DNA of 43,761 bases, taken from Seleniivibrio sp. GTDB taxonomy: Bacteria; Chrysiogenota; Deferribacteres; Deferribacterales; Geovibrionaceae. The stretch spans positions 1 through 43,761 of the forward strand of contig NZ_JAJOIL010000002.1 in the NCBI RefSeq assembly GCF_021209385.1, written 5' to 3'. Shown here piece by piece: positions 5,736 through 27,303 of the stretch. The stretch's first letter is position 1; the number at the start of each line of letters is the position of its first letter. A program made the position numbers and the translations under genes. The notes below the pieces were generated by a model. That model had not been told where the DNA came from. It did not search any database and saw only the letters and a list, made by a program, of their open reading frames with translations.

Positions 5736-5761
5736 GACTTTAATCTATAACCATGTATAAC
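5734..5761 (+). promoter_or_regulatory. Promoter of the cytosine methylase gene
   Basis: TTGACT (5734-5739) and TATAAC (5756-5761) are separated by 16 bases and form a good sigma-70 promoter. The predicted start of transcription (about 5768) lies downstream of the in-frame ATG at 5753. That ATG is therefore unlikely to be used, and the initiator is ATG 5780. Confidence 0.55.
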
Positions 5762-5779
5762 CTTGTGTATGGTGGTTAT

Positions 5780-7048
5780 ATGAAAGAATATTATACCCTT
5801 ACAGAAGTTGCTGATTTACTCGGTGTTTCAAAAGAAACATTAAGACGCTGGGATAATTCAAGAAAACTTGTTGCCGTTCGACATCCAATTAATAATTACA
5901 GAGTTTTTCATAAAAGTGAACTAAAAAAATTTGAACAATTGGGTTTTATGTTTAATGAAGCGGCAAATAATGAACGCGAACCTCTCAGAAAATATACATC
6001 CATAGAACTTTTTGCCGGAGCAGGGGGGCTGGCTTTAGGTCTGGAAAAAGCAGGACTTGAATGTGCCATGCTTAACGAGATAGATCATTGGGCATGTGAG
6101 ACATTGAAAAAAAACAGACCAAACTGGAATGTTATTGAAGATGATATTGCAAATTTAGATTTTATGCATTTTAAATCCAAAATAGATGTTGTTACTGGTG
6201 GATTTCCTTGCCAGGCTTTTAGCTATGCAGGGAAAAAACTCGGCTTAAATGACACCAGGGGGACGCTTTTTTATGAATTTGCCAGGGCAGTTAATGAAAT
6301 TCAACCTCCAATATTTATGGCTGAAAATGTTCGTGGACTTCTTACTCATGATGATGGTAAAACATTAAATGGTATTTTATCTGTATTTGAAGAGATAGGA
6401 TACAAAGTAATAGAGCCAAAAATCCTTAAAGCTATTTTTTACAAAGTACCACAAAAACGAGAGCGTTTAATCATTGTTGGTGTTAGAAAAGATATAAATG
6501 TTCCGTTTTATTTTCCTAACCCTCATTCTGAATTGTATACTCTTAAAGATGCTTTATTAGCTGGCAGATTATACGATACGGAAGTCCCAAAATCAGATGG
6601 AATGAAATATCCTTTAAAGAAACTTAACATAATGGAACATGTGCCGGAAGGCGGATATTGGAGAGATTTACCTATTGAACTTCAAAAAGAATATATGATG
6701 AAAAGTTATTATCTTGGAGGCGGTAAAACAGGAATGGCTCGTCGAATGTCATGGGACGAACCTTGTTTAACTCTCACATGTAGCCCATGTCAAAAACAAA
6801 CAGAACGTTGCCACCCATCAGAAACTCGCCCTTTCACAGTGAGAGAGTATGCCAGGATACAGACATTTCCTGATGATTGGACGTTTGCTGGTTCATTGGC
6901 TCAACAATATAAGCAAATAGGCAATGCTGTACCTGTTAATATGGCAAAAGAACTTGGGTATTCTATTATTGATTTTTTAAACAGATACTCAGCTATTTCC
7001 AATATGAATCATTTAGATTCTGTGCAATCTCTGACGCAAGTTTATTGA
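5780..7048 (+). CDS. C5-cytosine DNA methyltransferase with N-terminal HTH (Eco47II/Sau96I-like modification enzyme)
   Basis: Transfers a methyl group from SAM to cytosine in a specific DNA site, protecting the host from the neighbouring nuclease. From ATG 5780 (GGTGG at 5771-5775) it has 422 residues. Residues 1-55 form a MerR/excisionase-type helix-turn-helix ('YTLTEVADLLGVSKETLRRW'). The catalytic part shows motif I FAGAGG (78-83), motif IV with the PCQ loop and catalytic C144, motif VI ENV (182-184), motif VIII QKRERL (225-230), a target-recognition part with a Cys pair, and motif X 'QIGNAVPVNMAKELG'. The gene is clearly more AT-rich than its surroundings, which suggests horizontal transfer. 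Its 3' end overlaps the nuclease gene by 56 bases, tail to tail. The HTH may repress its own promoter, as in other C5 methylases with such an extension; this is inference. Confidence 0.9.
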   Translation: MKEYYTLTEVADLLGVSKETLRRWDNSRKLVAVRHPINNYRVFHKSELKKFEQLGFMFNEAANNEREPLRKYTSIELFAGAGGLALGLEKAGLECAMLNEIDHWACETLKKNRPNWNVIEDDIANLDFMHFKSKIDVVTGGFPCQAFSYAGKKLGLNDTRGTLFYEFARAVNEIQPPIFMAENVRGLLTHDDGKTLNGILSVFEEIGYKVIEPKILKAIFYKVPQKRERLIIVGVRKDINVPFYFPNPHSELYTLKDALLAGRLYDTEVPKSDGMKYPLKKLNIMEHVPEGGYWRDLPIELQKEYMMKSYYLGGGKTGMARRMSWDEPCLTLTCSPCQKQTERCHPSETRPFTVREYARIQTFPDDWTFAGSLAQQYKQIGNAVPVNMAKELGYSIIDFLNRYSAISNMNHLDSVQSLTQVY

Positions 7049-7715
7049 CAGCTTCTTCAAGTGCTATTGTTCCGTTTGTTTCACACGCAATTTCGCCGAA
7101 TGCCGTTATGAGGTCATAATAGAAGTTTTGAAACCCTGTCAGGCGATACCAGAAATCCTGTCCTATATGGATATTATAGTCTATGGAAACTTTTTTATAA
7201 TGGGCATTAAGTTGTTTCATCTTTCCATATGTTATACCAACGACCATGTCTCCTGGTAGTATTTGCAAATTATTAGTTCTAGCCCTGTTTTGCAAACTTT
7301 TAAAGTGTTGTTTAATCGGTTCCACATCTCCTTTATTAATGGTATCCGGTCCGGCTTTTAATTGACAATACTTTTTGCGTTTGTCGATTTGGTCGACAAA
7401 TTCTATGTCTATACCATCTATTGCGCTTCCATAACCATCAAGTACCTCGGCACAGAATTTATTCTGAATATTAGTGCCGAAAGATGTCGTAAAAGATGTT
7501 CCCAGTATTCTGGGGTACAAAAGAGCTTTGGCAATACTTTCTGGTGATTCATTTCCAGTTAGAAAATTTGCAAGATATCTGTATGTAAAAGGATTTATAT
7601 TTAATTCAGGTAAATTGGCAGCCTTTTTAAGATTTGATAAATGATTTTCAGCTATGTATTTCCTAAAGAAGCTCTTTGCTTTATCTAAAAGACCCACGAC
7701 CGTATTATTGTCCAT
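6993..7715 (-). CDS. Type II restriction endonuclease, Eco47II/Sau96I-like family
   Basis: A 240-residue protein with a PD-(D/E)xK-like core: D103/E105 in 'GIDIEF', then 'YCQLKAGPDTINKGD' with Q118 and K120. I recognise that segment from the Eco47II-type endonuclease family (RE_Eco47II), whose characterised members cut GGWCC or GGNCC. The specificity here is inferred, not read. The start is ATG 7715 with AAGGTGA upstream on the minus strand. It converges on the methylase with a 56-base overlap at the stop codons, and both share an AT-rich composition unlike the flanks. Length and core motifs look complete, so the system may be active. Confidence 0.8.
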   Translation of the reverse strand: MDNNTVVGLLDKAKSFFRKYIAENHLSNLKKAANLPELNINPFTYRYLANFLTGNESPESIAKALLYPRILGTSFTTSFGTNIQNKFCAEVLDGYGSAIDGIDIEFVDQIDKRKKYCQLKAGPDTINKGDVEPIKQHFKSLQNRARTNNLQILPGDMVVGITYGKMKQLNAHYKKVSIDYNIHIGQDFWYRLTGFQNFYYDLITAFGEIACETNGTIALEEAVNKLASEIAQNLNDSYWK

Positions 7716-21855: not shown

Positions 21856-22170
21856 GTTTATTTACTCCCCCGTCAGGCAATAGCTTAATATTAAAGACGG
21901 AGGAATGGAATAAAAATTCATATTATGAAGAAAATTTGCAGAAAAAGAGAGTTGTTTGTCCTGAAAAAGATATTTCGGAAATCCTGTGCCGTTGACTTAA
22001 AATCGTGCGCGGTATTCTTTGTTTATTCTTTTGCTATGTATTACTAAGTTATAATATATAGTTGCGTTATTTTTGCATAATTACCTGATAAATATTGACT
22101 TTTTTATCATTATGCTTAATTGTATATAACGTAATCGGAGTTTTGTAAATTATATATACGGGGGAAGACC
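21856..22170. promoter_or_regulatory. Divergent AT-rich control region with a nested dyad
   Basis: No gene is seen in these 315 bases between the RND adaptor (-) and the radical SAM gene (+). A nested inverted repeat occupies 22075-22115: outer arms GCATAAT (22075-22081) and ATTATGC (22109-22115), inner arms GATAAA (22087-22092) and TTTATC (22103-22108). TATAAT-like boxes occur around 22050-22062. The dyad could be an operator for either gene. A GGGGGAAG ribosome site lies at the right edge. Confidence 0.45.
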
Positions 22171-23952
22171 GTGAAGTGTAACGTATGCGAGATAGGATGC
22201 TCTGTGAGCGAGGGTGCAGGTGGAGCCTGCGGGCGATATACTGTTGAGAACGGAAAAATCACGGAGCTTTTTCCCCACAGCTATCTTGTGGTCTGCCCTA
22301 TCTCAGCTGAAACTATGCCGGTCATGAACTTTTACCCCGGAGCAAAGTTTCTCCAGATAAGCACCAGCGGGTGCAACTTCGACTGCGGCGGGTGCGTTGC
22401 CACCGTCTGCGCAAAGGAGATGAACGCCGACAGCAGTGCCATGAAAAAACTTACCCCTGAACAGATAATTCAAAAGGCATTTGCGCAGGAGTGCGCAGGA
22501 ATAGCGTTTCTGATGAACGATCCGCTGGCTTCATTCCACACTTTTCTGGAAGTTGCGAAGCTGGCAAAAAATAACGGGCTTCTCGTCGGCTGTTCGTCAA
22601 ACGGGTATTTCACGGAAGATTCGCTGAGCGGGATTTCGGATTATCTTGATTTTATCAACATAGGTATAAAGGGTTTGAATGACGCAGACTACAGAGCCTG
22701 CGGAGCGCCTTCGTACCTGCCTGTTATGCGCAATATACGGCTGTTTCATGAAAAGGGTGTACATGTTGAGGCGGCATGCATGCACAAAAAAGGCGGCGAA
22801 GAGACCGCGGTCAGCATAGCACAGGCTGTTGCCGCTGTTTCCAAAGAGATTCCGTTGCAGGTGATGCGGTTCATTCCTCTGGACGAGGCAGACATTACCG
22901 ATGAACCCACCATAGCGGAATCAGAAGCTCTGATAGAGCGAATGAAAGAGATACTGGACTATGTATATCTTTTCAACTCCCCCGGCACCGACTGTATCAA
23001 CACCTATTGTCCTGAATGCGGTAAGCTGATATTCGAGCGGGATTTTTACGGTCCCATGGGTTCAAAGCTCCGCGCATCGCACATAGGGCACGATGAAAAG
23101 AACTGTCCGAAATGCGGACACGCGCTGAAGCTTGAGGGTGATGTTGCGAAAAGGTCTTTCAACGAAAACGATTTCGAGGGCGGATACCCGTTCACCCGCG
23201 CTCTTGAGATAATAGAGGGAACGCTCGCCGCAATAGGCGTGCGCGACAGGAAAAAGATAATAAAATGCTGGGCGGATACGCTGAACGACGGCGGTCTGAC
23301 CCGTTTTCACGGAAATATCCAGAGTTTTGACAAATATGCGGACACAATTAAGTATTTCGGAAAACTGACAGGACATGTTGACGGTGCAGAGAGACTTGTC
23401 AGGTATATGCGCGATAAGATAGATATCATCAGTGAAGGGGCAGCTGGAGCCGCCTATAAACCTTCTGTGTATTATGTGATGAGTTCACCCCTTTTCGCCC
23501 TTGAGCCGGGCAGGCTTGAAAACTGGCTGGTGGAGATGGCTGGCGGCGTGAGCCTTAACAGAGGTATGGACTGCGAGGGCAGACCGGGCATGAGGATAAA
23601 ACCTGAAAGGCTGAACGAGTTAAACCCCGACGTGATATTCATCTCTTCGTTCATGCATGCGGAGCTGGACGATTTCTACAGTCTTTGCGACAGGCACTCA
23701 ATCATGACCAATGCAGTGGAAAACGGACGCGTCTATAACCACGTTGCACCCTGTTTCGACTTCGGAAGTCCCCGCTGGGTGCTTGGATTGATGCATATAG
23801 CGAATTGTCTGCATCCGGAGGTTTTCGGGTTTGACATAAAGGCGGAGGCGAAAGAGTTTTATGCGCTTTTCTACGGAATAGATTTCAGAGCGGAAGATGT
23901 TAACCGTTCATTTGCGAAACCCAGCAGAACATGGGAGTATTCAATGTTCTGA
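22171..23952 (+). CDS. Radical SAM protein (AmmeMemoRadiSam/PflA-like) fused to a periplasmic-binding-protein-like domain
   Basis: A 593-residue protein, GTG start with GGGGGAAG upstream and no signal peptide, so cytoplasmic. Residues 3-20 hold four cysteines (C3, C6, C10, C20) as in AmmeMemoRadiSam-type enzymes. The radical SAM cluster is C68-x3-C72-x2-C75 in 'SGCNFDCGGC'. The SAM-binding barrel runs to about 275. A zinc-ribbon-like pair follows (C280/C283 and C312/C315). A helical segment leads to residues about 430-590, which resemble the Fe3+-siderophore/BtuF-type binding fold ('RIKPERLNELNPDVIFISSF', 'NGRVYNHVAPCFDFGSPRW'). A binding-protein fold without export on a radical enzyme is unusual; it may bind a cobalamin, haem or iron-chelate ligand. 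The substrate is unknown. Confidence 0.8.
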   Translation: MKCNVCEIGCSVSEGAGGACGRYTVENGKITELFPHSYLVVCPISAETMPVMNFYPGAKFLQISTSGCNFDCGGCVATVCAKEMNADSSAMKKLTPEQIIQKAFAQECAGIAFLMNDPLASFHTFLEVAKLAKNNGLLVGCSSNGYFTEDSLSGISDYLDFINIGIKGLNDADYRACGAPSYLPVMRNIRLFHEKGVHVEAACMHKKGGEETAVSIAQAVAAVSKEIPLQVMRFIPLDEADITDEPTIAESEALIERMKEILDYVYLFNSPGTDCINTYCPECGKLIFERDFYGPMGSKLRASHIGHDEKNCPKCGHALKLEGDVAKRSFNENDFEGGYPFTRALEIIEGTLAAIGVRDRKKIIKCWADTLNDGGLTRFHGNIQSFDKYADTIKYFGKLTGHVDGAERLVRYMRDKIDIISEGAAGAAYKPSVYYVMSSPLFALEPGRLENWLVEMAGGVSLNRGMDCEGRPGMRIKPERLNELNPDVIFISSFMHAELDDFYSLCDRHSIMTNAVENGRVYNHVAPCFDFGSPRWVLGLMHIANCLHPEVFGFDIKAEAKEFYALFYGIDFRAEDVNRSFAKPSRTWEYSMF

Positions 23953-25706: not shown

Positions 25707-27227
25707 CTATTTTCTCCTGACATCCAGCTTTGCCATTTTGCTTCTCAGCGTGCTTGGCTTCAGTCCCAGAATCTCCGCCGCTCCGCCTTTGCCGTTTATC
25801 TTTCCTCCGGTGTAGTTCAGAACCTGAGAAATGTAATCCGCCGTGTGTACATCCAGATTTTCGGGGATTAAATCCGGTGCCTGCGATCTTACGAATTTTC
25901 TGTCCTCAAGCCTGTCGGCTGTTATGGATGAGAAGGTCAGTTTTCCGGTTTTGAAACGGATAAGTTCCCGTTCTATGACGTTTTGAAGTTCACGGACGTT
26001 GCCCGGCCATGAATAATTCGCCAGCTTTTCCAGTGTGCCAATCTCTATTGGCGGTGTCTGGTGAAGCCCTATCTCGCGGCACTTCTGTTCAATGAAATAG
26101 CGTGCAAGAGCGGGTATGTCCTCTTTGCGATTTCGCAGTGGCGGGATGTATATGGGGAAAACGTTCAGACGAAACCAGAGGTCTTCGCGGAATCCGCCTT
26201 CGGCAACCATGTCCTCCAGCTTTTTGTGGGTTGCGGCTATGATCCTTATGTTCAGCGGTATCGGCGTGCTGCCGCCGACCCTTTCAAGTTCACGGTTCTG
26301 CAGCACCCTCAAAAGACGTACCTGTGCCTGCAAGGGAAGCTCTCCTATCTCATCAAGAAATATAGTGCCTCCTTCCGCCCTTTCAAACCTTCCGCGCTTC
26401 ATTGCCGTGGCGCCCGTGAAGGCTCCCTTCTCATGTCCGAAAAGTTCCGTGTCAATGAGCGCTTCGGGTATAGCCCCGCAGTTGACCTTTATAAACGGCT
26501 GATTCTTTCTGGCTGAATTATAGTGGATGGCATTTGCAATGACCTCTTTTCCGACACCGGTTTCGCCAAGAAGAAGCACTGTGTTGTTTCTTTGCGCCAC
26601 CTGCGAAACCATCTCCATAACGTTTCTCAGTCCGCTTTTGGAGCCGATGATATCTTCGTGGTATTTTGAGGTGAGCTCATTTTGCAGAAACTGGTTTTCA
26701 TCCACCAGTCTGTCTTTGAGGTTCATAAGATCTTTATGGGCAAGTGCGTTTGCAAGCGCGATGGTGAAAGGATCCGTAACTATGCTTATAAGTTTTAAAT
26801 GATCCTGATTGTATCTTCTGTTGCCTAAGGCGCGCAGCGCAAGGGTTCCCAGTTTTGTGTCGTCTATGTGCAGAGGCACTATGATTGAAGAGTTCCCTTC
26901 ATCTTTTGTAATTTCCACCATCTTCTGAACAAACGGGAGTGGATTGTCTATGTCCTTTATCATGGGATGCTTTAATGCTCTTGTTATTTCCCACAGCTCT
27001 TCGTTGAGGGGGATGATTGTATCTTCCGTTAAGTTGCTGTTGTTCGGGACGGCAGCAATAAAACGGATTGCTCCCAGTTCATCGTCGTGTATAGCCAGAT
27101 AGATGTTGTCCAGAGGCATTATATTTCTGATATAGTCGTAAACCTTACTGAGGGCGGCTTTTATATCCAGACTGCCGCATATCCTGAGCGTGATCTCTTT
27201 GAAAAACTCATTTTCATCTATATTCAT
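25707..27227 (-). CDS. GAF-domain sigma-54-dependent transcriptional activator (NorR/FhlA-like)
   Basis: A 506-residue activator of sigma-54 RNA polymerase. Residues about 10-165 form a GAF sensor domain, a short coiled coil follows (170-188), then the AAA+ domain with Walker A GETGVGKE (221-228), GAFTGA (268-273), Walker B '[12 protein letters not shown]' (286-297) and an arginine-finger region. The C terminus is a Fis-type helix-turn-helix ('GGAAEILGLKPSTLRSKM'). No receiver domain is present, so a small ligand or redox signal probably acts on the GAF domain. It is divergent from the azoreductase-emr operon, which has a sigma-54 promoter and a nearby inverted-repeat cluster. It is therefore the likely activator. 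Confidence 0.92.
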   Translation of the reverse strand: MNIDENEFFKEITLRICGSLDIKAALSKVYDYIRNIMPLDNIYLAIHDDELGAIRFIAAVPNNSNLTEDTIIPLNEELWEITRALKHPMIKDIDNPLPFVQKMVEITKDEGNSSIIVPLHIDDTKLGTLALRALGNRRYNQDHLKLISIVTDPFTIALANALAHKDLMNLKDRLVDENQFLQNELTSKYHEDIIGSKSGLRNVMEMVSQVAQRNNTVLLLGETGVGKEVIANAIHYNSARKNQPFIKVNCGAIPEALIDTELFGHEKGAFTGATAMKRGRFERAEGGTIFLDEIGELPLQAQVRLLRVLQNRELERVGGSTPIPLNIRIIAATHKKLEDMVAEGGFREDLWFRLNVFPIYIPPLRNRKEDIPALARYFIEQKCREIGLHQTPPIEIGTLEKLANYSWPGNVRELQNVIERELIRFKTGKLTFSSITADRLEDRKFVRSQAPDLIPENLDVHTADYISQVLNYTGGKINGKGGAAEILGLKPSTLRSKMAKLDVRRK

Positions 27228-27239
27228 ACAGTTTCCTTA

Positions 27240-27303
27240 TAACGAAATATCGTTGTTTTTAATATATGTATCGATATTTAGATACCAGTATAACGATATT
27301 TCG
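27240..27303. promoter_or_regulatory. Operator cluster (probable enhancer) for the divergent GAF activator
   Basis: A 13-base word ACGAAATATCGTT at 27242-27254 recurs inverted as AACGATATTTCGT at 27291-27303, with a degenerate third copy (TCGATATTT, about 27271-27279) between. The right copy lies about 57 bases and the left about 106 bases upstream of the -24 element of the next gene, a normal range for sigma-54 enhancers. Confidence 0.7.

Follow-up and report, generated by a model that had tools for sequence, protein, structure and literature searches.

What might a bacterium do with a radical-SAM enzyme that is joined, inside the cytoplasm, to a binding-protein fold? The question is raised by a fusion gene at positions 22171–23952 (+ strand) of the window, by which we mean the whole 43,761-nucleotide stretch of Seleniivibrio sp. 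DNA that was analysed. The reading frame is uninterrupted by stop codons and encodes 593 amino acids from a GTG start, which is preceded by a probable ribosome-binding site read from the sequence (GGGGGAAG, 22160–22167, +). Pfam, NCBIfam and structure-database matches divide its product into a radical-SAM half and a cut-down type III binding-protein half. The full-length fusion is colinear in four genomes, namely the window's own (G000), a Seleniivibrio woodruffii MAG (G028, 80% identical to the window fusion), Deferribacteraceae UBA6799 (G025, 70%) and Thiobaca trueperi (G050, 63%), and purifying selection acts on both halves, each with a dN/dS of about 0.1 (NG86; some dS values are saturated). 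Since the fusion is full-length in four genomes and constrained in both halves, it is not an assembly artefact. Hydropathy of the whole protein gave no signal peptide and no transmembrane helix: the most hydrophobic 19-residue stretch averages 1.1 on the Kyte-Doolittle scale and lies within the enzyme half, and the N-terminus starts straight at a cysteine motif. The protein is a rare cytoplasmic enzyme with a radical-SAM catalytic half and a cut-down binding half, and we found no report of such a fusion in the literature searched. In these respects the original prediction, of an AmrS/PflA-like enzyme joined to a binding-protein fold without a signal peptide, was right, the AmrS model covering residues 1–320 and type III matches falling in the C-terminal part.

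The first half (residues 1–317; 22171–23121, +) was delimited by Pfam, NCBIfam and alignment with AmrS. The Pfam Radical_SAM domain covers residues 64–199 (E 3e-15; 57.2 bits against a cut-off of 29.5) and includes the CX3CX2C motif that marks the superfamily and forms the [4Fe-4S]/SAM site of these enzymes (CNFDCGGC, residues 68–75; 22372–22395, +); its cysteines, C68, C72 and C75, are invariant in all four fusions. On the NCBIfam model for AmrS (AmmeMemoSam_rS, TIGR04337) residues 1–320 score 112.9 bits, under the cut-off of 220, whereas the AmrS encoded elsewhere in the same genome (G000, contig C9), about 30% identical to the fusion, scores 293.7. The N-terminal cysteines 3, 6, 10 and 20 (CX2CX3CX9C), the CX3CX2C motif and two zinc-ribbon-like CxxC pairs (280/283 and 312/315; 23008–23115, +; the ribbon is also matched weakly by Pfam) all align with both AmrS proteins compared. 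The N-terminal cysteines and the zinc-ribbon pairs, regarded in the original prediction as extra, are therefore features of the AmrS family. What does distinguish the fusions is a set of six other cysteines (42, 108, 141, 177, 203 and 275), which all four fusions have and neither AmrS protein does. The enzyme half is a divergent relative of AmrS.

For the second half, a BtuF- or siderophore-receptor-like fold had been proposed, and structure prediction and fold search do place the C-terminal part among type III binding proteins. Sequence search matched it to solved type III proteins (4ovk, E 2e-9; 4hn9, E 7e-8), a profile of the four fusions matched 4pag (E 3e-15) and, with E 8e-4, the Haemophilus molybdate protein MolA, and Pfam Peripla_BP_2 matched residues 361–522 below its cut-off. 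An AlphaFold2 model of the C-terminal 276 residues, built with six sequences (pLDDT 72.5, pTM 0.75), superposed with VIA-align on 4hn9 with Z 18.8 (219 residues, 2.7 Å), on MolA (3psa) with Z 16.8 and on BtuF with Z 13.4. The interlobe helix and C-lobe are assigned to residues 386–580 (23326–23910, +) on sequence and profile matches, the model and structure comparison. The N-lobe is another matter: solved proteins are matched only from about their residue 110–135 on, past most of that lobe, alignment with the complete binding proteins encoded by the partner operon leaves large gaps where it should be, and the model is all helix from residue 334 to 425, with the earliest strand at 432. Alignment and the model place a helical stretch (residues 334–380; 23170–23310, +), containing the nearly invariant GGYPFTRALEIIEGTLAAIGV, at the N-lobe position. 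Of the type III hallmarks, the C-lobe and interlobe helix are thus present, whereas a complete alpha/beta N-lobe and an export signal are absent. As modelled, the N-lobe is shrunk to about 60 residues without a predicted strand, and the interlobe helix and C-lobe are retained. Because the fold is cut down, one cannot take for granted a ready-made chelate pocket between two lobes, and the ligand site may have been lost. The full-length AlphaFold2 model is weak (pLDDT 55), so the packing of the two halves cannot be placed.

Three of the four fusion genomes belong to one Deferribacterota genus. The fusion is absent from two more genomes of that genus and from the remainder of a 50-genome set of the phylum, and none was found at E 1e-55 to 1e-60 among 209 further genomes of the Thiobaca order, 397 further Pseudomonadota and 368 further Gammaproteobacteria, samples that may overlap; the scan of the genome collection used exact peptide patterns from one query, with a reach of close relatives only. 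Between the two phyla the fusions are 63% identical and the AmrS proteins 37%, which points to horizontal transfer. The FecCD and ATPase components of an importer, which recur alongside the fusion across phyla, are themselves 51% identical, against 32–38% for the other FecCD/E proteins compared. Taken together, these identities suggest transfer as a module, and enzyme and importer appear, on sequence comparison, to move together.

In G028 the fusion gene is divergent from fecCD, from a gene whose product joins an ATPase to a second binding-protein domain, this one complete, and from a gene for a periplasmic binding protein; G025 has the same transporter operon on a different contig from the fusion. 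The ATPase fusion (L004:6925–8814, −; L035:7894–9801, +) carries a complete type III domain without a signal and would be a second cytoplasmic binding protein, encoded in the same transporter operon. Unlike its sister G028, G000 lacks the fecCDE operon at this place, so either another importer serves the enzyme there or it acts alone. In Thiobaca, vodCAB-like genes, fecCD, the ATPase gene and the fusion lie head to tail, with a gap of 116 bp before the fusion and a TonB receptor gene downstream. Within 30 kb upstream are VnfDGK (VnfD scores 966.8 bits on VNFD, cut-off 823), a NifEN/VnfEN-type fusion protein and a vanadium-specific operon encoding a binding protein, a GTPase, a nitroreductase and a glutamate-cysteine ligase; the V-nitrogenase cluster also holds NifX-like and VnfA-like proteins. 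A counterpart of that operon is reported to be conserved with V-nitrogenase (PMC9542535).

The Thiobaca fusion operon is divergent from a VnfA-like regulator gene. Between vnfA and vodC are two exact VnfA motifs, GT(T/A)C-N6-GTAC, 31 bp apart; the pair occurred in none of 3000 random sequences, is unique in the 21.8-kb locus and is found also upstream of vnfDGK. A σ54-like site upstream of vodC (L006:5247) has one mismatch, and 87 of 3000 random sequences contain such a site; the first possible vodC start follows it by only 21 bp, which makes a later start (L006:5415 or 5499) likelier.

In the window, the promoter of the fusion carries a palindrome resembling a ModE operator, CATTATGCTTAATTGTATATAACG (22108–22131, not assigned to a strand), 40 bp upstream of the gene. 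It was scored with a matrix trained only on sites from modE promoters, a small set made up of three different Deferribacterota sequences, of which one counts twice (the G026 site is the reverse complement of the G000 site), and one of Thiobaca. These promoters hold CGTTAT-N12-ATAACG at five Deferribacterota modE loci and the similar palindrome CGCTAT-N12-ATAGCG at one Thiobaca modE locus, and ModE itself was found in all six genomes checked. The window site ranks first in the 43.8 kb, scoring 20.8 against 9.0 for the next, and was equalled in 1 of 5000 random intergenic sequences. The site before the Thiobaca operon, CGCTATATATTTTCACATATAACG, again ranks first in its 21.8-kb locus (22.2 against 9.9; 0 of 5000 random sequences equal). 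Upstream of the G028 orthologue (L004:9935) all 24 bases are identical, and the flanks there are also fairly conserved. We found no convincing site at the G025 fusion promoter; the motif does stand without mismatch before the fecCDE operon elsewhere in that genome. It also precedes modE-modABC, a second modABD-like operon and genes for Tat-signal/molybdopterin-type oxidoreductases. Genome-wide, G000 has 14 sites with at most one mismatch against 7 for a reversed-pattern control, so some isolated one-mismatch sites are not real. The ModE consensus CGNTATATA-N6-TATATAACG gave only a marginal window site, with four mismatches and equalled in 94 of 2000 random sequences, and was replaced by the matrix. 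Since that consensus had helped to locate the modE-promoter sites, the training set is independent of the sites tested but not of the prior idea. From the operator we infer that ModE probably regulates the fusion in vivo.

Several further sites were seen. One adjoins exbB-exbD-tonB genes, in front of the operon (G000:C10:55766 and G028:C10:152507), as if TonB energisation were molybdenum-controlled. Two adjacent ModE-operator-like sites (G000:C15:7912–7964) precede a second transporter of the mod type, which includes a ModD-like gene. In Thiobaca, modE, ModE-type sites and an adjacent TonB receptor gene share a region (G050:C4:297700–304600, L069) with a type III binding-protein match at C4:304094. 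Another palindrome, CGATATTTAGATAC..ATAACG, lies at 27272–27295 of the window and at L004:13357–13380, in both genomes between a gene for a GAF/σ54 regulator and azoreductase/TolC/EmrAB genes; as a ModE site it was rejected, being equalled on the matrix by 487 of 5000 random sequences. The adjacent NifA-like regulator (25707–27227) was likewise dropped as a partner of the fusion, since the VnfA/AnfA cysteine motif is missing from it, its identity to Thiobaca VnfA is only 39% and it is divergent to azoreductase/TolC/EmrAB in both G000 and G028. No convincing σ54 promoter was found upstream of the window gene. Elsewhere in the window, a C5-cytosine methylase gene adjoins that of an EcoO109I-family restriction enzyme (5753–7715).

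The fusion co-occurs with alternative nitrogenase. Of the 50 genomes of the phylum, four encode AnfG/VnfG, all from one genus; the fusion is found in three of these four and in none of the remaining genomes, and the AnfD of G000 scores 1022 bits. In a sample of 398 Pseudomonadota two genomes have AnfG/VnfG, one of them the single fusion genome. These counts are weakened by the relatedness of the genomes, in effect one lineage plus Thiobaca. One genome, G026, has AnfDGK, the Fe-only nitrogenase, without the fusion, which is thus not required for that enzyme.

Beside these, a single gene run of G000 (C10, L056:2902–16133) encodes a FecBCDE importer and TonB receptors together with NifH/NifD/NifK-like proteins and a methyltransferase. 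This uncharacterised system resembles nitrogenase and is tied to chelate import; another NifH-like copy is at G028:C10:200424. For comparison, the NifD-like Avin_39870 belongs to a VnfA-controlled TonB/ABC operon (PMC9542535).

In Azotobacter, vnfA and anfA are repressed by ModE as long as molybdenum is present, and VnfA drives TonB/ABC operons when both molybdenum and vanadium are lacking (PMC9542535). On this pattern the fusion should be made in the cytoplasm when molybdenum is scarce, alongside the FecCDE importer. Its promoter and its relatives link it to the way in which bacteria with alternative nitrogenases respond to scarcity of molybdenum/vanadium, and it may therefore process metal chelates imported at low Mo/V. 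Our main reading, to which we give a probability of roughly 0.45, is that the fusion is the cytoplasmic end of a system acquiring scarce metal, Mo and/or V, and processes imported chelates.

ChuW and HutW are radical-SAM enzymes that open haem anaerobically, so that metal is freed from an imported chelate. A comparable sequence of events can be drawn for the fusion. With molybdenum exhausted, ModE would leave the operator upstream of the gene and the fusion would be expressed, in Thiobaca together with the fecCDE importer and under VnfA and σ54. A metal chelate would enter through an importer of the TonB/FecCDE type, to be grasped by the signal-less cut-down binding module, unless that module docks on the importer. 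The AmrS-like half could then generate a 5′-deoxyadenosyl radical that cleaves or modifies the organic ligand, releasing the metal independently of O2, as with ChuW/HutW. The metal, the binding of a chelate and the radical chemistry are what we infer from these parts; candidates for the metal are Mo, V and W. More tentative is the full picture, in which the half-built binding domain hands a Mo/V chelate to the radical-SAM centre, the ligand is destroyed or remodelled anaerobically, and importer, handler and alternative nitrogenase form one pathway controlled by ModE and VnfA. To our knowledge, the cytoplasmic freeing of Mo/V from chelates in diazotrophs is poorly known, and we found no radical route for such release in the literature searched. 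A signal-less binding protein in such a regulon does have a precedent in VnfZ (PMC9542535).

VnfZ also lends itself to an unlikely alternative, that the fusion is a metal sensor or regulator whose binding module reads cytoplasmic Mo/V, free or bound, and whose radical-SAM half or clusters signal to the regulators of alternative nitrogenase. VnfZ, itself a binding protein without a signal, controls VnfA3 (PMC9542535), and in Thiobaca the regulator gene divergent from the fusion operon is VnfA-like. However, VnfZ is of the PhnD type, not type III, the regulator near the window fusion has no VnfA cysteine motif and shares just 39% identity with Thiobaca VnfA, and a sensor would have no need of a radical-SAM motif that, with six further cysteines, is invariant. 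Those six cysteines would suit a somewhat less probable reading, namely a NifB-like enzyme for building, trimming or loading the heterometal of a nitrogenase or nitrogenase-like cofactor, the binding half being the metal donor. Its location in the Thiobaca Vnf cluster is consistent with this, and Foldseek matches the radical-SAM half to NifB, as well as to PflA and viperin. Yet no NifB family appears among the 18 NCBIfam families matched with E up to 0.1, the fusion runs with importer genes and not with vnfEN, G026 has AnfDGK without it, and the full-length model is weak.

The original prediction had named a corrinoid, haem or metal chelate as ligand. A corrinoid or haem enzyme is improbable: the type III fold is shared with BtuF and haem-binding proteins (Z 12–15), and FecCD-type importers carry cobalamin and haem too, but no riboswitch, for cobalamin or otherwise, was found in five loci at gathering thresholds, and the ModE-type operators, the Thiobaca vnf operon and the co-occurrence with nitrogenase point to Mo/V. 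MolA and iron-complex proteins do match better (16.8–18.8, against 13.4 for BtuF); as the fold is shared, this closer match of a model is not proof of ligand. Corrinoid, haem and iron chelate thus gain no support, and a metal chelate in the wide sense is our best guess for the binding half. An activase of a glycyl-radical enzyme, of PflA type, is very improbable, since the PFLA and YjjW models do match but with about 26–28 bits against cut-offs of about 230–250 (PFLA, 25.8 against 231.75), and no glycyl-radical enzyme was noticed among the translated neighbours of the fusion loci.

Were processing of imported Mo/V chelates confirmed, it would bring radical-SAM chemistry into the acquisition of Mo/V for alternative nitrogenases, provide an anaerobic counterpart of siderophore hydrolysis, and mean that binding-protein folds are re-employed inside the cell. 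An orphan AmrS-like enzyme meanwhile gains a testable physiological setting, molybdenum starvation.

Set against known systems, the fusion shares with AmrS (TIGR04337) the whole layout of its first half, from the N-terminal CX2CX3CX9C through CX3CX2C to the C-terminal zinc-ribbon pairs, and departs from it in its score (112.9 bits for a cut-off of 220, with some 30% identity to the 293.7-bit AmrS of G000), in six additional invariant cysteines, in the attached binding-protein fold and in the ModE-type site of its promoter. With type III proteins of the FecB/BtuF/MolA kind (4hn9, 4pag, MolA 3psa) it has in common the interlobe helix and C-lobe (Z 16–19); unlike them it has no signal peptide, an N-lobe reduced to helices and an enzyme joined to it. 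ChuW/HutW offer a working analogy only, that of O2-free metal release from an imported chelate (cf. PMC10035031), and belong to another radical-SAM family with a tetrapyrrole substrate and no binding-protein half. VnfZ of Azotobacter vinelandii differs in being PhnD-type, in lacking an enzyme half and in acting on the regulator VnfA3, but resembles the fusion in being a cytoplasmic binding protein, without a signal, that belongs to a regulon under Mo/V control (PMC9542535).
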